In this document: positions 3,261 to 39,446 of the stretch, one piece after another
Numbering within the stretch: position 1 is the stretch's first letter
Layout: each line of letters starts with the position of its first letter
Assembly: GCF_030758935.1 (NCBI RefSeq)
Contig: NZ_CP132333.1
Location: 2,728,992-2,792,991 of the forward strand
Source: Geothrix sp. PMB-07
GTDB taxonomy: Bacteria; Acidobacteriota; Holophagae; Holophagales; Holophagaceae
Length of the DNA stretch: 64,000 nucleotides
Direction: 5' to 3'
The notes under the pieces: model-generated
The model's input: the letters and a program-made list of their open reading frames with translations, nothing else
Database searches by the model: none
What the model was told of the DNA's origin: nothing
Translations under genes and position numbers: made by a program

Positions 3261-4049
3261 TCAGGCGGCGTAGGTCTTGTAGAAGTACCAGGCGGCCAGG
3301 GTGAAGCCGATGCAGATCACCCCGACACGCACGGGGCCCCGCCCCACGCGGTGGGCCATGTGCGAGCCGAAGAGCCCGCCCAGGCCCGCGGCCACAGCCA
3401 TGGGCAGGATGAGCATCCATTTGGCGTTGCCGGGATGGCGCAGGGCTTCCATGAGCATGAACGCGAAGATGGCGATGCCGTTGATGCAGAGGGCCAGCAG
3501 GTTTTTGAGCCCATTCATCTGGTGGATGTCCGTGAGCCCCAACAGGCTCAGGGCCGCCAGCATGAGGATGCCGATGCCCGCGCCGAAGAACCCTCCATAG
3601 ACACCCACCACGAATTGGAAGCAGATGGCAGCGATCCACCATCCGGGTGTGCGCTCATGGCCGTGGATCTTCTTCAGGAGGCGGTTGACGGGATCGTTGG
3701 CCGCCAGCAGCACCGAGGCCGTGAGGATGAGCCAGGGCACCAGCTGATCGAAGAGCTTTTGGGGCGTGACGAGCATGAGCCAAGCGCCCAGGGCCCCGCC
3801 GATAAGCGAAGGGGGCATCAACCGCAGGGCGAAGGCCCTGATACCCGCGAGATCCTCGCGATGCCCCCAGAACCCGCCGATGGAGCCGGGCCAGAGTGCC
3901 AAGGTGCTGGTGACGTTGGCCTGCTGGCCCGTGAGGCCGATGCCCAGCAGCGCGGGAAAGGACACCAGGGTGCCGCCGCCTGCGATGGAGTTGATGGCCC
4001 CGGCCACGAAGGCCGCCGCCATGACGGTGAGGATGTGGATCAGGGACAT
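3261..4049 (-). CDS. TauE/SafE-family membrane permease
   Basis: A 262-residue polytopic inner-membrane protein. The N-terminal signature (AAFVAGAINSIAGGGTLVSFPALL) is the Gly-rich first repeat of the TauE/SafE (DUF81) family, and a second repeat (GVYGGFFGAGIGILMLAALSLLG) lies mid-protein, giving the usual duplicated topology of about eight helices. Family members export sulfite, sulfoacetate or related anions, but the substrate here cannot be read from sequence. It is the first gene of a likely two-gene operon with guaC. I see no sulfur gene nearby. Confidence 0.88.
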   Translation of the reverse strand: MSLIHILTVMAAAFVAGAINSIAGGGTLVSFPALLGIGLTGQQANVTSTLALWPGSIGGFWGHREDLAGIRAFALRLMPPSLIGGALGAWLMLVTPQKLFDQLVPWLILTASVLLAANDPVNRLLKKIHGHERTPGWWIAAICFQFVVGVYGGFFGAGIGILMLAALSLLGLTDIHQMNGLKNLLALCINGIAIFAFMLMEALRHPGNAKWMLILPMAVAAGLGGLFGSHMAHRVGRGPVRVGVICIGFTLAAWYFYKTYAA

Positions 4050-4144
4050 GCCCCCACGATGACAGGCCTCGGAACCCTTCAGTAGCCCCTGGCCCCACCT
4101 AGAGACGGGTCTTCGGGAAGCCTCTGCCGGGTTATTCTGAAAGG

Positions 4145-5089
4145 ATGCAGCTCTCCTGGCCTTCGCCCGCGCGCTTCGCGCTCATCCTTGCCCTGCTCTG
4201 GGCCCTGCTCTGGGTGGCCTACGTGCTGCTCTGGACGCCCGGCCCCTTTTCGCTGCGGGCGCTGGGCCTCTATCCCAAGAAACTGGGCTCCCGGGTGGTG
4301 GGCTGGGCGGCGAACCGCACCCTGCCTGCGTCCTGGCGCCTGCCCCTGCTGGGCCGATTCGCGGGCCACTACGGCATCAACCTCAGCGAAGCTGAGTTTC
4401 CCCTGGTGGACTACCCCAGCCTGCAGGCCCTGTTCACGCGCCGCCTCAAACCCGGCCTGCGGCCTCAGGACCCGGCCCTTCCCGGCTTCGTGAACAGCCC
4501 CGTGGATGGCCGCATCATTGCCTGCGGGCGCATCGAAGCGGGCATGGCCATCCAGGCCAAGGGCCTGCCCTATCGCATCGCTGAACTGCTCAAGCACGAT
4601 CCCCAGGCCGCGCGTTTCGAGGGCGGGCACTTTCTGACGCTCTACCTTTCCCCCAAGGACTACCACCGCATCCATGTGCCCATCGAAGGCCGCATCACCG
4701 CCGTGAGCCACGTGGAAGGCGAACTCTGGCCCGTGAACGATGCCAGCACCGGGAACGTGCCACGCCTCTATGAGCGCAATCGCCGGGCCTCCTGGACCGC
4801 CCTGGGCACCGGCGCCGACGCAGGGCTGGAAGTGGCCGCCGTGCTGGTGGGCGCCACCCATGTGGGCGGCGTGGTCATCGATGGTCGTTGGCTCGGCGGC
4901 CGCACCCTGCCCCAGGATGGCGGCTTTCCCGTGGACCACCTGCCCTGCGCCCCCGGCGAGGATCTGGGCACCTTCGAGTTCGGCTCCACCGTGGTGCTGC
5001 TCGTCGGCGGGCCCAAGGCCGCCCAGTGGGCACCGGACCGTACTGTGGGCGAGGTGAGGATGGGGCAGCGGCTGGGAGGGTACCGGTGA
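4145..5089 (+). CDS. psd: phosphatidylserine decarboxylase proenzyme
   Basis: A 314-residue membrane-associated enzyme that makes phosphatidylethanolamine from phosphatidylserine. It has an N-terminal hydrophobic anchor (about residues 8-30). NSPVDGRI matches the conserved P-x-D-G segment. LYLSPKDYHRIHVPIEG carries the family's His residues. FEFGSTVVLLV at about 276-286 holds the G-S-T autocleavage site that creates the pyruvoyl group on the alpha chain. Length is normal for the bacterial type. The stop overlaps the scpB start (GTGA), indicating translational coupling. A -10-like TATTCT lies 6 nt before the ATG. Confidence 0.93.
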   Translation: MQLSWPSPARFALILALLWALLWVAYVLLWTPGPFSLRALGLYPKKLGSRVVGWAANRTLPASWRLPLLGRFAGHYGINLSEAEFPLVDYPSLQALFTRRLKPGLRPQDPALPGFVNSPVDGRIIACGRIEAGMAIQAKGLPYRIAELLKHDPQAARFEGGHFLTLYLSPKDYHRIHVPIEGRITAVSHVEGELWPVNDASTGNVPRLYERNRRASWTALGTGADAGLEVAAVLVGATHVGGVVIDGRWLGGRTLPQDGGFPVDHLPCAPGEDLGTFEFGSTVVLLVGGPKAAQWAPDRTVGEVRMGQRLGGYR

Positions 5090-32168: not shown

Positions 32169-34310
32169 TCAGAAGCAGCAGGAGAGGGTGAGCTGAGCGC
32201 GGCGCGGCGTGCCCACGGTGATGTTGTAGTCGTTGCCCGCGGTGGGGTAGTAACGGCGGTCGAAGAGGTTCTCCACATTGAGGGAAAGCCGGTTCTGCTT
32301 GCCGAAGCGGAAGTAGACCGCTGCGTCGGCGCGGGTGAAGGCGGGCAGCAGCACCGTGTTGGTGGTGCTCGCATAGGTGTCGGCCTGGTGGATGAGGCCC
32401 AGCCCCAGCGCCCACGAGTCTGACAGATCCACCTTGTTCCACCAGCTGGCGGCACGGCGGGGCACCAGCGGCACCTGCGTTCCGGCCGGCACCGCGGCGC
32501 TGGTGGCGCTGCCGCCGGTGGCCTTCACCACGCGGGCATCCAGCTGGGCGAAGCCCCCATAGACCTGCCAGCGCTCCGTGACCTGGCCCTGGAAGCCGAT
32601 CTCCACGCCATCGGTGCGCTGGAGTCCTGAGAGCACCAGCTTGGTGGGGTCGTTGGGATCCTTGCTCTTCACATCGGCGCGGTCGAGACGGAAGGCCGCC
32701 GCCGTGAGGGCGAAGCCTGCGCTGAGATCCCACTTGCCGCCCACTTCCCAGTTGGTGGCCTTCTCTGGCTTCAGATCGGCGTTGCTGGCGCTGAGGGACA
32801 GGGTTTCGCTGCTGGGCAGGAAGGCGTAGCTGTAGCTGGCGTAGTAGGAGGACGCGGCGTTGGGCTGGTAGATGAGGCCAGCCCGAGGCGAGGCGGCCTT
32901 GTCGGTGCGGGCCAGGTCGACGTTGGCAGAGCTGCGGTCATCCAGCGCCACGCTGAAACGGTCGTAGCGCAGCCCCAGCACCGCTTTCCACTGGCTGGAG
33001 AGCGTGATCTGATCCTGCAGGTAGAGCGCGGCGATGTTGGCAGTCACTTCGTTGTGGGTGTCGCTGCTGGCCGCGGCCCAGCGGGTGACCGAGGCCCGGG
33101 GGCTGGAAGCATCCACCGTGGCGGTGGTGGCCGTTCCGAAATAGCCCGTCAGGCGCGTGTTGTCGCTGTCCTGGTGGCCCAGTTCCAGACCCGCCAGCAG
33201 CAGGTGCTCCATGCCACCGATCCGGCCGCGGACTTCGAGTTCGGTCTGATTGAACACATTGGTGCGGAGGTTGGACTGGCTGTAGGCGGACACCTTCATC
33301 AAGCGCGTGGCGGGATCCACCACGCTGTTGGGCTGGACGTTCTGGCGCAAGGTGTCGTAGCGCGTGACGCGCAGCGCGTTTCGCAGGAGGACATTCGGGG
33401 CCAGGCTGGTTTCCACTTTGGCGCTGAGGCTATCCACCACCGCCGCGCTGGGGCTCTGCGAGGGATCGCCGAAGAAGGTCTCCCGCGCCCCGTCCAGGGG
33501 TCGGCCGTTGAGCGCAGGGATGCCGCGGTCCGTGGTGCGGCGGTCCTCGAAATGTTCCACCCCCACCAGGGCCAGCGTGTCCTGGCCGAGCGCGAACTCC
33601 AGCACCGGGTTGATGCCGGAACGGCGCAGTTTGAACCCTTCGCGGAAGCCCTTGGCATCCTCGGCCACGGCATTCACCCGGAAGCCTGCCTGGGTTCCGA
33701 GGCGGTCGCTCACATCCACACTGGCCCGCTTGTCCTGCCAGCTTCCCAAGCTCAATTCCGCCTGCGTGAGGGCCTGCTCCAACGGGCGCTTGGTCACGCG
33801 ATTCACCACGCCGCCCCCACCGCCGCGACCGAAGGTCATGCCGCTGGGCCCCTTGAGAATCTCGATGCGCTCGGCGTTGTAGGGGTCCCGGAAATAGAGG
33901 GCGTCATCGCGCAGGCCATCCACGAAGAAATCCGAGGTGGTGCTGATGCCGCGGAGCACCGGCTGGTCGCGCCCGCCTTCACCGGGATTCATCGAGGCCC
34001 CCGGCACGTAGCGGATGATGTCGGCCATGCTCTTCATGCCCTGATCCTTGACCAGCATTTCCGGCACCACCTGCACGGACTGAGGCACGTCGCTCAGGGG
34101 CGTGTCGGTCTTGGTGACCGTGGCGGAACGCCGAGCCCGGTAGCTCTTGACGGGGCCGTCGGCCCGCTCGCGATCCTTGGTTTTCTTGCCCTTCACCTTC
34201 ACTTCGGGCAGGGCGGCTTCCTTCGGCGGAGGAACCTGGGCGGGCTCCTGCTGGGCCGTTCCTTGCGGGGCCAGGCAGGTGAGGAGGGAGAGCAGCAGAA
34301 CGTGCGACAT
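32169..34310 (-). CDS. TonB-dependent siderophore receptor
   Basis: A 713-residue outer-membrane receptor. After a signal peptide comes a Lys/Arg-rich linker and a plug domain with TDTPLSDVPQSVQVVP, VLRGISTTSDFFVDGLRDD and ILKGPSGMTFGRGGGGGVVNRVTKRP, the pattern of the FhuA/FecA-like siderophore receptors. The barrel ends in LTLSCCF, a phenylalanine-terminated last strand with an unusual Cys-Cys. Ligand class (catecholate versus hydroxamate) cannot be assigned. It is the second gene of an operon with tonB and the PepSY protein. Confidence 0.92.
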   Translation of the reverse strand: MSHVLLLSLLTCLAPQGTAQQEPAQVPPPKEAALPEVKVKGKKTKDRERADGPVKSYRARRSATVTKTDTPLSDVPQSVQVVPEMLVKDQGMKSMADIIRYVPGASMNPGEGGRDQPVLRGISTTSDFFVDGLRDDALYFRDPYNAERIEILKGPSGMTFGRGGGGGVVNRVTKRPLEQALTQAELSLGSWQDKRASVDVSDRLGTQAGFRVNAVAEDAKGFREGFKLRRSGINPVLEFALGQDTLALVGVEHFEDRRTTDRGIPALNGRPLDGARETFFGDPSQSPSAAVVDSLSAKVETSLAPNVLLRNALRVTRYDTLRQNVQPNSVVDPATRLMKVSAYSQSNLRTNVFNQTELEVRGRIGGMEHLLLAGLELGHQDSDNTRLTGYFGTATTATVDASSPRASVTRWAAASSDTHNEVTANIAALYLQDQITLSSQWKAVLGLRYDRFSVALDDRSSANVDLARTDKAASPRAGLIYQPNAASSYYASYSYAFLPSSETLSLSASNADLKPEKATNWEVGGKWDLSAGFALTAAAFRLDRADVKSKDPNDPTKLVLSGLQRTDGVEIGFQGQVTERWQVYGGFAQLDARVVKATGGSATSAAVPAGTQVPLVPRRAASWWNKVDLSDSWALGLGLIHQADTYASTTNTVLLPAFTRADAAVYFRFGKQNRLSLNVENLFDRRYYPTAGNDYNITVGTPRRAQLTLSCCF

Positions 34311-34375
34311 GGGGGCCTTTCAGGCAGAGGAATCCCAGGCCTCGCGAGGCCGAGCTTCAGAAGCGGTTGGATGGA

Positions 34376-35203
34376 CTAGGCGTCCAGTTGGAAGGAAAGG
34401 GGAACCAGCACCCAGGCGGCCAGGCGCTCGGTCCCGCGCCGGGCGGGCGTGAAGCGCCAGCGCTTCACAGTGCCCAGGGCAGCCTGATCCAGACGTGCGT
34501 GGCCACTGCTTTGGCGGACTTCCACCTGCTCGGGCTGGCCCTCGGGGTTGACGAGCACCCGGAGAATCACCTTGCCCTCTTCACCGAAGCGCTTGGACAG
34601 GGCCGGGTAATCCGGTTCGGGGTTCTGCAGGTAGGCCGCATCGAAGCGAGGAGCCACCACCGCACTGGCCGAACCCTCCAGCGAGCCGCCCACCTGGCCG
34701 CCGAGGGTGCCACCCATCACACCACCCCCCTGCCCACCAGGGACGCCCCCCGCAGGCCCCTGGGCAGGGAGCTGGCCCGATCCCACAGCCAGCACCGGGC
34801 TGGGTTCGGCGGGCTGGGGCATGGGCTGAAGGTCTTCCGCGCGGGGCGCCGAGGTGGCAGATTGGTTGGTCGTGGCAGGGGCCAGCGATGAGACCGGCGG
34901 TGGAGGCGGGGCCGGGGCATCGAAGGTTTCCAGAGCCACCGTCACGGCGCGCAACGGAGCTGGCGCAGTCGGCGCGGCCACAGCCAGCACGAACGCCGCA
35001 CTGAAGAGGGCCCCGTACACCGCCACTGACAGGGCCATCACCCGCGAGCGGGGACCCTTGGGCAGGGTGCCAAGGATGGGAGGCTCCGCCAGCTGAATGG
35101 GCGCCTGGGCAAGCGAAGAGGGACCGATGCCTGGCGTGGCGGCTGGCAAGGGCCAGTCGCCCAACGGGGCCGAGAGGACGGAGGTGGTGAGCACGTTTCC
35201 CAT
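34376..35203 (-). CDS. tonB: TonB energy transducer
   Basis: A 275-residue protein anchored by one helix (about 57-78), with a Pro-rich region (PAPPPPP) and Gly-rich linker spanning the periplasm, and a C-terminal TonB domain (NPEPDYPALSKRFGEEGKV, ending in a W-x-F-x-P-A-R segment). It transmits proton-motive force from ExbBD to outer-membrane receptors; exbBD is not in the window. An unusually long N-terminal cytoplasmic part of about 55 residues precedes the helix. It is the first gene of the iron-uptake operon, behind a Fur-like palindrome. Confidence 0.9.
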   Translation of the reverse strand: MGNVLTTSVLSAPLGDWPLPAATPGIGPSSLAQAPIQLAEPPILGTLPKGPRSRVMALSVAVYGALFSAAFVLAVAAPTAPAPLRAVTVALETFDAPAPPPPPVSSLAPATTNQSATSAPRAEDLQPMPQPAEPSPVLAVGSGQLPAQGPAGGVPGGQGGGVMGGTLGGQVGGSLEGSASAVVAPRFDAAYLQNPEPDYPALSKRFGEEGKVILRVLVNPEGQPEQVEVRQSSGHARLDQAALGTVKRWRFTPARRGTERLAAWVLVPLSFQLDA

Positions 35204-35219
35204 GCCCCCAGTCTACACA

Positions 35220-35238
35220 ATTGAGATAGCGTCTCAAT
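35220..35238. promoter_or_regulatory. Fur-box-like operator of the tonB operon
   Basis: ATTGAGATAGCGTCTCAAT is a palindrome with 7-bp perfect arms, about 17 nt before the tonB ATG. Half-sites TTGAGA/TCTCAA match the outer parts of Fur boxes of many bacteria. On the minus strand TTGAGA followed 16 nt later by TAGACT could be the promoter, so repressor binding would cover the -35. Confidence 0.55.
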
Positions 35239-35285
35239 ACCGTTTTGACTCAAATCACGCCCGTCCCCGGAAACAGGCCTCCGTT

Positions 35286-38200
35286 TCAGGCCCGCTCCAG
35301 CCCACCGAAGCGCGCCATGATGCGCTTGTCGCCTCCCTGGTCGAAACGCACGGTGTAGGTGAGCCCGTCTCCCCGTCCCGATGCGGCAAGGATGCTGCCC
35401 AGGCCGAACCGGGCGCTGCGCACGCGGGTGCCTGCGGGGAAGGCACTGGCATCCTGCGGCTCGGTGGGTTCCAGCCTCTGGGGGGTATCCGCTGCAGCCG
35501 GTGCAGAAGGCTCCTTCACACGATCGAAAAAGCTGCGGATGCGCTGCAACTCCGTGGCCACCGAGGCGCCCCCGCCACCGCGGCTGAAGGAATTGCCGGG
35601 CCGCACGCCCTCGCCTGCCTGATAGATTACCGTACCCCAGCGGATGGGCGCGGTGAGCGCTTCGCTGGGAATCTCCCGCAGGAAGCGGCTGGGCATGCCG
35701 AGCATCTCGGTGCCCATGATGCGCCGCCGACGGGCCGCACTGAGGGTGAGGCGGCGCTGGGCGCGGGTGATGGCCACGTAGAAGAGGCGGCGCTCCTCCT
35801 CCAGCCCTTCCGGCGTCTCGCGGGCATTGCGATTGGGGAAGACATCCTCTTCCATGCCCACCACGAACACGAAGGGAAACTCCAGGCCCTTGGCGCAGTG
35901 GATGGTCATGAGGCTGAGGTGGGCGGCCTCCTCGATCTGATCCGTGTCCGCCGCCAGGGTGATGCGGTCCAGGAACTCCGAGAGGCGCAGGCCCAGGGAT
36001 TCCATTTCCGCCGCGGCGCTGAGGAATTCCTCGAGGTTGCGGATGCGGCCTTCGGCTTCGAGCGTGGCTTCATCCTCCAGGCTCTGCAGGTACCCGCTTT
36101 CCTGCAGCACCCACTTCACCAGGCCCGCCAGGCCCTGCGCCTCGCGCTCGCCCGCAGCCCGCTGGAACAGATCCAGGAACTTGCCCATCTCGCGTTGGGC
36201 CCTGCCCTTGAGTTCGCCCGAGCGAAGCAGCACCGCCAGCCCCTCCAGCGGCGTGCCGCCCTCGGGGATGGCGCCCTCGATCTTGCCCAGGGTGGTGGGG
36301 CCCACGCCACGGGTGGGGGCGTTCACGCAGCGGCGGAAGCTCACCAGGTCGAAGGGATTCGAGATGAGCCGCAGGTAGGAGATCAAATCCTTCACTTCCT
36401 GGCGCTCGTAGAACTTGACGCCGCCCACCAGCCGGTAGGCCAGGTTCTGCGCCCGCAGCGCCTCTTCCATCTGCCGGGACTGCCAGTTGGCGCGATAGAG
36501 CACGGCGATCTTCGCCTCCGGCTCCTGGTAGCGCAGTTCCTGAATGCGCTGCACCACCCATTCCGCCTCCAGGCGACCCTCGTCACTCAGCTTGAAAATG
36601 ATGGACTCGCCCTCGCCCAGATCCGTCTTGAGCGCGCCCTTCCCCTCCACACGCTGCGAATTGTTGGAGATCACCTGCGAAGCCGCATCCAGAATCTTCT
36701 CCGTGGAGCGGTAGTTCTGCAGCAGCTCGATGCGCATGGCTTCGGGAAAGTCTTGCTGGAAATCGAGGATGTTGCGGATGTCGGCGCCACGCCAGCCATA
36801 GATCGAGTTGTGGGTCAGGCAGCCATTGGCGATGAAGTTATGGACACCTTCGATGTCCAGATCGAAGACTTCGGCTTTCAAGGGCACGCGCTCCACCTTG
36901 GCCACCACCTCCAATCCGCCCTGCCCATCGAACAAGGCCATGCCCGGTTTCAGATTGCAGGCGGGCAGGAAGGGCAGGCTGCTGGATTCACGGCCAGGAC
37001 TGGCGCCCAGCCGGGCCCTAAGCTGGAGGTCGGCCTCCAGATGCTTCCGGATGCGATCTGCCATCTTGCGAATCGTCGAGAAGGAGGCCGCGCAGGTTTC
37101 GACTCTCCAACTTCGCGATCCAGCCTTTGCTGGCCGCACCGACAGGCCCAGGCCCTCAAGAATGCGGCGGTCCTCGGGACTCTGTCCCACCATGGAGAGG
37201 CGGTGCATGGGGCGCTTCCCCCGCCGGTCGCCACAAAGGGTCACCACAACCTGGCGGCGTTTCCCTGTGCTGGCCTGAGCGCGGTGGTGGGGGGCCTCTA
37301 CCGCCATGCCCAGGTCCGCCAGCAGGCGCTCGGCCCCGGCCTGAGAATCCACAGAACCGAACACCTGCCGGATGGCCTGGGCATCGTGAACCAGCCCTCG
37401 AGTGGACCCGCCCTTGCAAGGGACGAATGGCAGCGTGGGAAGCTGGTAGCGCAGCGACCAGATCTCCTCCTGAATCCGCGCCTCTTGCTCGCTCCCGTGA
37501 GTAGACAGCACCCACAGGTCATCCGCATGCTCCTGCCTCGCCCGCTGGAGGAACCCCACCACCGGCTTCACCTGTCCGCGGGTATGCGTCTGGCTGGTGC
37601 CCAGGCGCCAGCCCACGCCCTGCTTGTGCATGAGGTAGACGAAATGAAGCTGAGGTGTGGCCCCCAAGCGGTAGCCCGCGAAATGGATGTGCTCCGGCGT
37701 ACTGACGAGCACATGGCCAGACTCGGTGGTGATGCGGACTCCCAGTCCATCCCGGCTTCGCATCGAGGCCTTCAGCACTGTCGCGGGCCGGAAATCGCCA
37801 CTGCCGTGGCCTGCAAGCACCAGATCCCCAGGCGCCAGCTTCTCAATGGGCCGCTCCCTCCCATCGGCCATGCGGATCCGCGTGCCCTTGGCCAGACACT
37901 GATCTTCATCGCCCACCACACAGATGTTGTGGTGCCTGCGCGCCAGGTGCTGCACCAGCAGGTACTGGGCGCGGTTGGTGTCCTGATACTCGTCCACCAG
38001 GATGAACTTGAAGCGCTCGGCGTACTGCATCTGCACCACGGGATCGCGGAAGAGGCGTTCCGTCCACAGCAGCAGGTCGTCGAAATCGCAGGCGCGGTGG
38101 TTCTTCAGACCCTTCTGGTAGAGGTCATAGGCGTCCAGAACCTTGCGGGTCCAGGGGTCCAGAGCCTCTTCCCGGGCCTCCTCGGGCAGCAGGCAGCGGT

Positions 38201-38672
38201 TCTTGAAGTCGCTGATGAGTTCCAGCACCTTCTTGGGGTGGAACTGTTTTTCGGGCAGCTTCAGCTCCGCCAGCACCTGTTTGACGAGGCTCTTCTGATC
38301 CGAGGGATCGAAGATGACGAAGTCGCGGCCCACGGGCGTGCGGTCGCCCTCCCGGCGCAGGATGCGCGTGCAGAAGCTGTGGAAGGTGCTCACCCACATC
38401 TGCGCCGCGGGCACCGAGACCAGCCGCTGCACACGCTCACGCATCTCCTCGGCGGCCTTGTTCGTGAAGGTCATGGCCAGGATGGAACCCGGCTGGACGC
38501 CCTCCTCCTCGATCAGCCAGGCGATGCGCCTCGTGATCACCGTGGTCTTGCCCGAACCCGCGCCCGCCAGGATGAGCAGGGGGCCGCGGGCGTGGCACAC
38601 CGCCTCCCGCTGGGGGGCGTTCAGGTTCTGAAGAAGGGGATGGTCGTGCGGTTCGGGGGCGTGGCCAGGCAT
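35286..38672 (-). CDS. uvrD: UvrD/PcrA DNA helicase interrupted by an intein
   Basis: A 1128-residue precursor: a 764-residue superfamily 1A helicase plus a 364-residue intein. The N-extein has LNAPQREAV, Walker A AGAGSGKTT, and Walker B VDEYQDTN; the host sequence breaks after VVGDEDQ and resumes at SIYGWRGADIRN (motif III). The C-extein carries QNYRSTEKIL (motif IV), TIHCAKGLEF (motif V) and VAITRAQRRL (motif VI). The mature enzyme is of normal PcrA size and unwinds DNA 3'-5' in repair and replication. It follows two cytochrome c genes after a 19-nt gap. TAGCAT lies 6 nt before the ATG. Confidence 0.95.
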   Translation of the reverse strand: MPGHAPEPHDHPLLQNLNAPQREAVCHARGPLLILAGAGSGKTTVITRRIAWLIEEEGVQPGSILAMTFTNKAAEEMRERVQRLVSVPAAQMWVSTFHSFCTRILRREGDRTPVGRDFVIFDPSDQKSLVKQVLAELKLPEKQFHPKKVLELISDFKNRCLLPEEAREEALDPWTRKVLDAYDLYQKGLKNHRACDFDDLLLWTERLFRDPVVQMQYAERFKFILVDEYQDTNRAQYLLVQHLARRHHNICVVGDEDQCLAKGTRIRMADGRERPIEKLAPGDLVLAGHGSGDFRPATVLKASMRSRDGLGVRITTESGHVLVSTPEHIHFAGYRLGATPQLHFVYLMHKQGVGWRLGTSQTHTRGQVKPVVGFLQRARQEHADDLWVLSTHGSEQEARIQEEIWSLRYQLPTLPFVPCKGGSTRGLVHDAQAIRQVFGSVDSQAGAERLLADLGMAVEAPHHRAQASTGKRRQVVVTLCGDRRGKRPMHRLSMVGQSPEDRRILEGLGLSVRPAKAGSRSWRVETCAASFSTIRKMADRIRKHLEADLQLRARLGASPGRESSSLPFLPACNLKPGMALFDGQGGLEVVAKVERVPLKAEVFDLDIEGVHNFIANGCLTHNSIYGWRGADIRNILDFQQDFPEAMRIELLQNYRSTEKILDAASQVISNNSQRVEGKGALKTDLGEGESIIFKLSDEGRLEAEWVVQRIQELRYQEPEAKIAVLYRANWQSRQMEEALRAQNLAYRLVGGVKFYERQEVKDLISYLRLISNPFDLVSFRRCVNAPTRGVGPTTLGKIEGAIPEGGTPLEGLAVLLRSGELKGRAQREMGKFLDLFQRAAGEREAQGLAGLVKWVLQESGYLQSLEDEATLEAEGRIRNLEEFLSAAAEMESLGLRLSEFLDRITLAADTDQIEEAAHLSLMTIHCAKGLEFPFVFVVGMEEDVFPNRNARETPEGLEEERRLFYVAITRAQRRLTLSAARRRRIMGTEMLGMPSRFLREIPSEALTAPIRWGTVIYQAGEGVRPGNSFSRGGGGASVATELQRIRSFFDRVKEPSAPAAADTPQRLEPTEPQDASAFPAGTRVRSARFGLGSILAASGRGDGLTYTVRFDQGGDKRIMARFGGLERA
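36807..37898 (-). other. intein within the UvrD/PcrA helicase
   Basis: A 364-residue in-frame insertion (precursor residues 259-622). Splicing blocks are intact: Cys1 in CLAKGTRIRMADG (block A), TPEH in VLVSTPEHIHFA (block B, T-x-x-H), VFDLDIEGVHNFIANG (block F), and C-L-T-H-N followed by Ser+1 (block G). Between blocks B and F lie about 250 residues. The first part (near 37410-37650) has VYLMHKQGVGWRLG and, about 55 residues later, ARIQEEIWSLRY, resembling the Y/G and Glu elements of GIY-YIG nucleases. The next part (about 36990-37400) is unassigned. No clean LAGLIDADG or HNH motif is seen. GC content matches the host gene. Confidence 0.93.
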
Positions 38673-38691
38673 CCCACCATGCTACAGGCCC

Positions 38692-39054
38692 CTACCGGGC
38701 CGGTGTGATGTCCTTGCCCTTCTCGGCCTTGCGAAGCAGTTCCGAAACCATGACCTGAGCCTCGACCTCGCTGACGCGCTTCTTGAAGGGCGGCATCACC
38801 ACCCCGAAGAAGATGCCCTTGCGGATGGCCTTCACCATCCGCTCATCCGATTTCCGGGCCATGACCGTGGCATCCGTGAAATCCGGCGCGCAAAGTTTTT
38901 TCCCCTTGGGGGTTCGTCCCGAGCCATCGGGGCCATGGCAGCGGGCGCAGCTGGCCACATAGAAGGCCTTCAGCTCGTTCAGCGATTTCACGGGTGCCTG
39001 GGCCGACAGTCCCGCAACGAGCAGCAGGGCTGGCATCAGGGGCAGGCGCCGCAT
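38692..39054 (-). CDS. small periplasmic c-type cytochrome
   Basis: A 120-residue protein with a signal peptide (MRRLPLMPALLLVAGLSAQA) and one haem-binding CARCH motif. The probable axial Met is in GVVMPPF. It is a class I-like monohaem cytochrome for periplasmic electron transfer. GAGG about 7 nt upstream supports the ATG at 39054. It follows a related cytochrome gene by 26 nt and precedes the helicase gene by 19 nt, all on one strand. Confidence 0.87.
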   Translation of the reverse strand: MRRLPLMPALLLVAGLSAQAPVKSLNELKAFYVASCARCHGPDGSGRTPKGKKLCAPDFTDATVMARKSDERMVKAIRKGIFFGVVMPPFKKRVSEVEAQVMVSELLRKAEKGKDITPAR

Positions 39055-39080
39055 GGAGACCTCGTGGTGGGATGAACCCA

Positions 39081-39446
39081 CTATGGCCGGGGAAGATCCG
39101 TCTGCAAAGGCGCACCTGGCTTTTTCCCTCCGCGCCCCATGGGCCGGATGACCTCGGTGACCAGGCGCCGCGCTTCAGCCTCGTCCAGGTGCCGCCGGAA
39201 ACCTGGCATGGCGCCCCGGCCCTTGAGGATGGAGGCCGCCAGATCCTTCTCATCCTGCTTGGCGAACCAGCGGGCATCCGTGAGGTTGCGCCCCCCCAGC
39301 CGGGCGCCGCCAGGTCCCCGGCCCGTGCCCTCCGGACCGTGGCACACCGCGCAGCGTTCCTGGAAGAAGGCCTTCAGATCCCGGACCTCCCCGGCCAGGG
39401 GCGTGACGATGAACACAAGCAGCAGCGCGGCAGAACGCAGGACCAT
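39081..39446 (-). CDS. small periplasmic c-type cytochrome
   Basis: A 121-residue protein with a signal peptide (cleavage near LAGE) and CAVCHGPEGTGRGPGG. The likely Met ligand is in GRGAMPGFRRHLDE. It shares layout with the next gene (CARCHGPDGSGRTPKG), so the two look like a tandem duplication that has since diverged. Electron partners are not evident. Confidence 0.87.
   Translation of the reverse strand: MVLRSAALLLVFIVTPLAGEVRDLKAFFQERCAVCHGPEGTGRGPGGARLGGRNLTDARWFAKQDEKDLAASILKGRGAMPGFRRHLDEAEARRLVTEVIRPMGRGGKKPGAPLQTDLPRP

Follow-up and report, generated by a model that had tools for sequence, protein, structure and literature searches.

A gene for a PcrA/UvrD-family helicase in Geothrix sp. 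PMB-07 (phylum Acidobacteriota) is interrupted in frame by 364 residues that, judged by sequence and predicted fold, are a class 1 intein, and between the two halves of its splicing (Hint) domain this intein holds an insert with a GIY-YIG-like core. The gene lies in a 64,000-nucleotide stretch of the genome (contig NZ_CP132333.1, positions 2,728,992 to 2,792,991), here called the window and numbered from its first letter. We put the probability that the element is a class 1 intein carrying a GIY-YIG-like homing endonuclease at roughly 0.78, with splicing chemistry and nuclease activity both read from sequence and model. Its features are as follows.

35286..38672, minus strand: PcrA/UvrD-family helicase precursor, 1,128 residues (open reading frame with TIGR01073 PcrA and UvrD-helicase PF00580 matches)
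37899..38672, minus strand: N-extein, 258 residues, ending in VVGDEDQ
36807..37898, minus strand: intein, 364 residues, Cys1 to Asn364
37662..37898, minus strand: Hint N-terminal half, residues 1-79, with the Cys1 codon at 37896-37898 and block B T67xxH70 (C1 and H70 invariant in 82/82 aligned inteins; Hint fold)
37419..37649, minus strand: GIY-YIG-like core, residues 84-160 (AlphaFold2 model; conserved Y88, R98, G100, R119, E123, W129, and E144)
37467..37469, minus strand: codon of the putative catalytic Glu144 (invariant in 82/82)
37299..37418, minus strand: helical linker, residues 161-200, with helices 173-181 and 185-195 (AlphaFold2 model)
36999..37298, minus strand: second domain, residues 201-300, with the conserved VTLCGDRRG (AlphaFold2 model; putative DNA-recognition domain)
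36807..36983, minus strand: Hint C-terminal half, residues 306-364, blocks F and G, ending in H363-N364 (intein_Cterm match, E = 2.2e-6; H363 and N364 invariant in 82/82)
35286..36806, minus strand: C-extein, 506 residues plus stop codon, starting with SIYGWRGADIRN

The original prediction, made from the DNA letters alone, had placed an intein at 36807-37898, and these coordinates proved exact, on the minus strand. The precursor encoded by the frame at 35286-38672 reads ...NICVVGDEDQ, then 364 in-frame residues (CLAKGT...CLTHN, from Cys to His-Asn as claimed), and then SIYGWRGADIRN; removal of the 364 residues leaves exactly the 764 that had been stated. The interrupted site is presumably helicase motif III. 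The TIGR01073 PcrA model matches the precursor with an E value of 2.5e-223 and 743.5 bits, below its cut-off of 911.2, and the match is split into two stretches because the helicase gene is interrupted. No further match to the helicase was obtained in the window's genome at E ≤ 1e-60, both matches being the two exteins of this gene.

The class 1 splicing residues that had been called intact are all present, namely, Cys1, block B T67-P-E-H70, H363-N364, and Ser+1. The NCBIfam intein_Cterm model matches above its cut-off (E = 2.2e-6), and NCBIfam intein_Nterm (E = 0.0016) and Pfam Intein_splicing (E = 9.5e-8) match somewhat under theirs; the rows obtained when the intein was searched against the PDB with phmmer were inteins, further Hint domains, and chance matches (best E, 0.00039). 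The AlphaFold2 model of the whole intein, built on an alignment of 82 rows, reached a predicted local distance difference test score of 93.5 and a predicted template modeling score of 0.90. In this model, the Hint fold is matched by the first 18 structures at Z scores of 19 to 20 (root mean square deviation, 1.4 to 1.8 Å over 124 to 136 residues), all of them intein (including Mtu RecA and Ssp DnaB), BIL, or Hedgehog Hint domains.

Relatives were collected by a scan of one genome per species, which gave at least 179 relatives among at least 590 candidate stretches. The best 80 were taken as loci; three incomplete ones (L071, L109, and L114) were dropped, and the alignment omits 7 near-duplicates among the 77 full ones, its 82 rows thus being 70 genome loci, 11 viral sequences, and the window. 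Throughout these 82 inteins, C1, H70, H363, and N364 are invariant. Each of the 77 full-length genome relatives begins with Cys, finishes with His-Asn, occupies the same site, and is free of stop codons, with GDxxQ before the intein (one ADDDQ) and [S/C][I/V][Y/F] after it (one contig ends after two residues). Within the genus, the helicase gene is uninterrupted in 31 of 47 genomes, interrupted in 11 (each time a single frame of 1,131 to 1,137 residues), split or partial in 2, and without a match in 3. The original prediction had proposed a search of close relatives for an empty site. Of the uninterrupted genes, 30 of the 31 uninterrupted genes were available as loci, and all 30 show the exact site VGDEDQ^SIYGWRG (^ marks the junction), within VGDEDQSIYGWRG. 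The intein is beyond chance because 77 of 77 relatives share its ends and site and 30 of 30 uninterrupted loci show the site empty.

The insert between the Hint halves is most likely a homing endonuclease, a reading drawn from its predicted fold and conserved residues. In the AlphaFold2 model, the core opens with two strands (85-92 and 96-103), followed by helix 115-122, strand 127-134, and helix 137-151, and this confidently predicted beta-beta-alpha-beta-alpha order, which is that of GIY-YIG nucleases, was unchanged when the 232-residue insert was modeled alone. The two strings quoted earlier in support of a GIY-YIG core, VYLMHKQGVGWRLG and EARIQEE, are both present in the intein. Across the alignment, which spans phage methylase inteins just 25 to 28% identical to that of the window, Y88 is Tyr in 81 of 82 rows (Phe in the other); R98, G100, R119, E123, and W129 are each kept in 81, with one gap; and E144 is found in all 82, as constant as the splicing residues. 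The Tyr thus falls in strand 1, the Arg-x-Gly in strand 2, the Arg in helix 1, and the Glu in the helix past strand 3. In GIY-YIG enzymes, as in I-TevI, the first Tyr, the strand 2 motif, the helix 1 Arg, and the catalytic Glu occupy those same elements. A catalytic arginine and glutamate are also common to CMoRE and UvrC, according to the accessible text of PMC12923530.

The strand 2 position of the canonical second tyrosine (the Y of YIG) is taken by Arg98 in 81 of 82 rows, and an aromatic residue stands immediately ahead of R98 in 78. T5orf172 domains carry Lys at that position (K16, invariant in all 8 rows of an 8-row alignment), and such domains are treated as a GIY-YIG subfamily in the part of PMC10448857 consulted. 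Arg here and Lys in T5orf172 replace the second Tyr, and therefore, the pattern of the core is most like that of the T5orf172 branch.

Several results weigh against placing the core in this superfamily, beginning with the missing second tyrosine itself. A Pfam search with 38 members recognized none of them as GIY-YIG or as another nuclease and was limited to six single weak matches (best E, 0.059), and the intein was not among the matches of the T5orf172 (PF10544), MUG113 (PF13455), and GIY-YIG (PF01541) profiles in the window's genome; genuine members of these families occur in 8 of 61, 9 of 61, and 40 of 41 genomes of the window's family, respectively. With hhalign, the core scored 14.8 against T5orf172, 17.4 against UvrC, 14.2 against YhbQ, and 14.3 against a pooled GIY set, all narrow test sets drawn from the same bacterial family and ten phage records; 9, 2, 24, and 9 of 200 column shuffles, respectively, did as well, and decoys (reversed families, extein tiles, and Hint pieces) scored similarly or higher against some sets. 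The piece aligned with UvrC covers a strand and the Glu helix, 29 columns in all. Sequence tests are weak in this setting: a genuine T5orf172 domain of the genus finds no GIY-YIG chain in the PDB by phmmer.

A Foldseek search of the PDB returned nothing at E ≤ 0.001 and no GIY-YIG structure among the 50 matches listed, of which 24 are meganucleases, presumably of the LAGLIDADG kind, at template modeling (TM) scores of about 0.2. In VIA-align, the only 1 of 50 rows confined to the core is a GIY-YIG nuclease, CMoRE (9u75), with 69 residues aligned at 2.6 Å but a low Z score of 4.5; the remaining rows match the second domain, one of them (3cgi) extending into the core. Among predicted viral structures (BFVD), the insert alone had four matches at E ≤ 0.001 (two unnamed, a methyltransferase, and a helicase), and the 50 listed include 4 named GIY-YIG and 7 named as other homing, intron-type, or putative endonucleases, all at E > 0.001. 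The whole model had three strong partners among predicted viral proteins (TM, 0.59 to 0.73), followed by other inteins at about 0.3, from which its architecture looks distinct.

An insert profile run with hmmsearch against PDB sequences gave three chance rows only (best E, 0.53). PHROGs assigned neither the window intein nor four of six relatives to a family, and no family named as a nuclease came up; in PADLOC, two homing-endonuclease models match the last 25 to 32 residues only, alongside one chance row. Pfam and NCBIfam searches with all 364 residues found only Hint or intein families and intein-bearing proteins, with no LAGLIDADG or HNH family among the matches and the Hom_end_hint match limited to residues 1-34. 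A LAGLIDADG or HNH insert was rejected as a candidate.

The GIY-YIG idea thus held in part. Topology, the Tyr/Arg/Arg/Glu order, the 9u75 row, and the GIY-YIG and homing-endonuclease names in weak viral-model matches speak for it; Pfam, hhalign, the Foldseek PDB search, and the Arg in place of the second Tyr do not. The fold comparison that had been suggested as a check recovered the GIY-YIG element order, but without a Foldseek PDB match at the threshold and with 24 of 50 listed matches of the LAGLIDADG kind. The earlier description of the insert as a GIY-YIG core applies to its first part (84-160) and had not separated off the second domain (about 201-300), which is also there. Because profile methods miss it and its structure matches are weak, we call the core GIY-YIG-like rather than a proven member of the superfamily.

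The same evidence bears on the alternative that survives best, namely, that the insert represents a separate nuclease family or a diverged LAGLIDADG-type enzyme, its GIY-YIG likeness being a convergence on a small alpha/beta layout, and that it still drives homing. No profile recognizes the insert convincingly, the hhalign scores lie near those of shuffles and decoys, LAGLIDADG-kind enzymes are abundant in the Foldseek PDB list, and the second tyrosine is missing, all as this explanation would have it. However, the element order and the near-invariant Tyr, Arg-x-Gly, Arg, and Glu fit GIY-YIG and misfit a LAGLIDADG half, whose fold has to begin with a helix and contain two strand pairs, and the sole VIA-align row confined to the core is a GIY-YIG nuclease. 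On balance, we regard a separate or LAGLIDADG-derived family as improbable.

Under the preferred reading, that of a class 1 intein with a GIY-YIG-like homing endonuclease, residues 1-79 and about 306-364 (the Hint part) would excise the intein and join VVGDEDQ to SIYGWRG, releasing a 764-residue PcrA/UvrD protein. The core (84-160), with Tyr88, Arg98, Arg119, and Glu144 as its likely active site, would cut intein-free alleles, presumably at or near the conserved motif III codons, and the linker and second domain may assist in target recognition. Repair of the cut gene from an intein-bearing allele would then copy the intein into it, that is, homing.

The second domain, a putative DNA-recognition domain, is modeled as beta-beta-alpha-beta-beta-alpha (216-287), after two helices and before Hint resumes. 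It contains a strongly conserved TLCGDRRG stretch, which was one of the two patterns behind the genome scan. Its VIA-align matches are bacterial microcompartment (BMC) shell proteins (Z, 5 to 6), eIF1-like proteins, and, weakly and below the BMC shell proteins, the LAGLIDADG enzymes PI-PfuI (Z, 3.8), an I-OnuI variant (3.7), and I-DmoI (3.5). By length and sequence, the domain is absent from the 285-residue methylase inteins and from the intein of Bacillus phage SPO1; in helicase inteins of viral contigs (339 to 414 residues), the domain or a longer form of it appears to be present. A wider conjecture, which we consider doubtful, is that these inteins represent a widespread endonuclease class in which a GIY-YIG-derived core with Arg for Tyr would be joined, in the helicase inteins, to a LAGLIDADG half that lacks the motif and serves only for reading DNA, two homing-endonuclease folds thus being fused within a single intein, the whole moving between phages and several phyla.

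That inteins like this one occur in UvrD helicases of other phyla had been suggested in the original prediction, and such inteins were indeed read at the same site in at least 77 further genome loci from at least six phyla by record name. These phylum counts are lower bounds biased to close relatives, and many of the records are metagenome bins. The 70 loci in the trees come, by NCBI name, from Acidobacteriota, Pseudomonadota, Actinomycetota, Chloroflexota, Deinococcota, and two Patescibacteria groups, with 8 unplaced. The phage records with a match number 66 for the intein, 37 of which align across 80% or more of its length, and 65 for the core; the matches listed comprise UvrD/Rep helicases of the coliphage type, UvrD helicases like that of SPO1, methylases of Streptococcus suis phages, and records that are unannotated or environmental. 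In a set of 63 phage records, wherever the annotation of the 40 listed is informative, it names a helicase, a methylase, or, in phiD12, a ParB-like nuclease. The element also occurs on plasmids, in a Providencia methylase and a Thermobispora helicase.

The host sites are correspondingly varied and comprise motif III (GDxxQ^C), VDE^C and DEAQDLN[K/A]^C near motif II of viral helicases, and HEP^C of a ParB-like methylase. In each of three viral-contig loci (L033, L036, and L038), a single open frame contains two YLM...RxG cores; the second core of L038 is of the WWRVG form, as in methylase inteins. A viral-contig scan with the window intein alone gave no relative. Among 396 genomes of the phylum, with at most 14 candidates scored per genome, the core was found solely in the 10 known UvrD inteins, and no free-standing source of it was found. 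In Bacillus phage SP82G (L015), the annotation splits the UvrD helicase into two genes, sp82g_190 and sp82g_191, at a point within the N-extein before the intein, and the second frame also ends early; the SPO1 helicase is one frame.

Presence of the intein is patchy: it occurs in 10 of the 396 phylum genomes, the window's own included. An extein tree of 40 close alleles (30 empty; 10 full, namely, 6 alleles of the genus and 4 named loci falling among them; a quick tree, with the other full alleles of the genus left out) requires at least seven changes between full and empty, seven on the starred branches alone, with gain and loss not told apart. The patchy presence and the repeated changes of state together suggest that the intein is mobile. 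Compared with the window, intein identity exceeds helicase identity in 55 of 57 hosts whose helicases are less than 50% identical to its own; in 13 close hosts, the intein is the less alike in 13 of 13 comparisons. Over all pairs, the median intein identity is 50.0% where helicase identity is below 40% and 53.5% where it is 60 to 70%; 7 of 78 rows, with too little extein, were left out of these comparisons. This pattern of identities points to transfer between lineages.

Two considerations temper that picture. Saturation could account for part of the plateau in intein identity. Moreover, the intein tree groups mostly by phylum, with 8 changes (the least possible being 6) compared with 7 in the extein tree (both quick trees), which indicates that transfer between phyla is not frequent. 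One misfit is a group that unites the inteins of Roseomonas genomospecies 6 and two Azospirillum with those of two Rubrobacteraceae (Shimodaira-Hasegawa-like approximate likelihood ratio test support, 93; not starred); the inteins of another Azospirillum and of two other Roseomonas fall outside this group.

The ratio of nonsynonymous to synonymous substitution rates (dN/dS) in the core is 0.042 to 0.150, the lowest of four intein parts in four of six comparisons within the bacterial family, with dS near saturation in several of them; as far as sequence comparison goes, the core is under strong purifying selection. One UvrD intein (L116, positions 4001 to 4981; 327 residues; left out of the insert-only alignment) lacks residues 89-134 in window numbering, most of the core, in frame, with Cys1, His70, His-Asn, and the helicase flanks intact. 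It looks like a nuclease-deleted stage, as expected for a decaying homing nuclease.

These data also bear on the explanation that the insert has lost its nuclease function or never had one and is a domain kept for regulating splicing or for binding DNA on behalf of the helicase. Conditional splicing at the position of the intein, a conserved helicase motif, could regulate repair, and the intein tree runs largely by phylum, both of which would suit a kept domain. Such a role is nevertheless hard to square with the sporadic presence and the turnover among the 40 close alleles, with the occurrence of this core in methylases as well and at further sites in helicases, and with the L116 intein, which lacks most of the core and retains its splicing residues; we consider it highly improbable. 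That the 364 residues are a stable insertion rather than an intein has next to no probability and was rejected, given the invariant splicing residues, the Hint fold at Z scores of about 20, the position inside a conserved helicase motif, and the uninterrupted alleles of the genus with their empty sites.

The helicase gene is flanked on the minus strand by two small c-type cytochrome genes (Cytochrome_CBB3; 38692-39446) directly upstream and by genes for a TonB-dependent receptor and a TonB-like protein (32169-35203) directly downstream. On the plus strand, an open frame of 1,203 residues (35097-38708) covers the entire helicase gene and is most likely a shadow of high-G+C codon usage rather than a gene.

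Among known systems, the LAGLIDADG inteins share class 1 splicing and the general layout, in which an endonuclease domain is set into the Hint domain between blocks B and F; the window intein differs in having no LAGLIDADG profile match, and its likeness to other inteins among the viral models is consistent with a shared Hint part only. Intein endonucleases are described as mostly LAGLIDADG in the accessible portions of PMC7765530 and PMC5050341, the former listing GIY-YIG among homing endonuclease gene families with no intein example named in that portion, and a 2006 survey (PMC1564403, likewise in part) gives GIY-YIG members in group I introns and none in inteins. Among the literature matches listed, from a collection with few subscription papers, no title, abstract opening, or text passage reports a GIY-YIG-type domain inside an intein. 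At the AceL NrdHF split intein locus, a gene for a putative GIY-YIG homing endonuclease lies between the two split halves (PMC7891396, available text), unlike in the window, where the nuclease-like domain is part of the intein itself.

With respect to the nuclease, the predicted element order and the Tyr, Arg, and Glu positions of the core match those of the solved GIY-YIG enzymes CMoRE/PD-T4-3 and UvrC; unlike them, the core has Arg for the second Tyr, is embedded in an intein, and has no significant profile similarity. The T5orf172/MUG113 branch, for which phage homing-endonuclease genes are described (PMC10448857, in the part available), shares the pattern Y ... [K/R]-[I/V/L]-G-x-[T/S] ... 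R ... E, with a basic residue for the second Tyr. It has Lys where the window intein has Arg, the loop before helix 1 is longer in the window intein, and the hhalign comparison is not significant.

If the insert cuts DNA, a further nuclease fold would have been taken up by inteins on a large scale, with the element in helicases of six or more bacterial phyla (by record name) and a closely similar one in model phages like SPO1; the insert would then also be a source of new site-specific nucleases and inteins. The element further offers a comparative set for the gain, keeping, and loss of a homing nuclease within an intein. The relevant phage counterparts are of two kinds. The UvrD-type helicase inteins of SPO1 (gp34.33) and CampHawk have the same kind of host protein and the same YLM...RVG...E core as the window, and that of SPO1 occupies the same site (GDDDQ^C ... 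HN^SMYSF). They are annotated as 275 residues in SPO1 and as Cys292-N576 in CampHawk (PMC3868849), lack the second domain, unlike the window intein, and have no endonuclease named in them in the SPO1 record or the accessible text of PMC3868849. The UvrD/Rep helicase intein of Justusliebigvirus coliphages (PaulScherrer and others), annotated in the record as an intein only, is about 26% identical to that of the window over the whole 364 residues, lies at the same site (GDEFQ^C), and combines the core with a strongly diverged region that aligns with the second domain.

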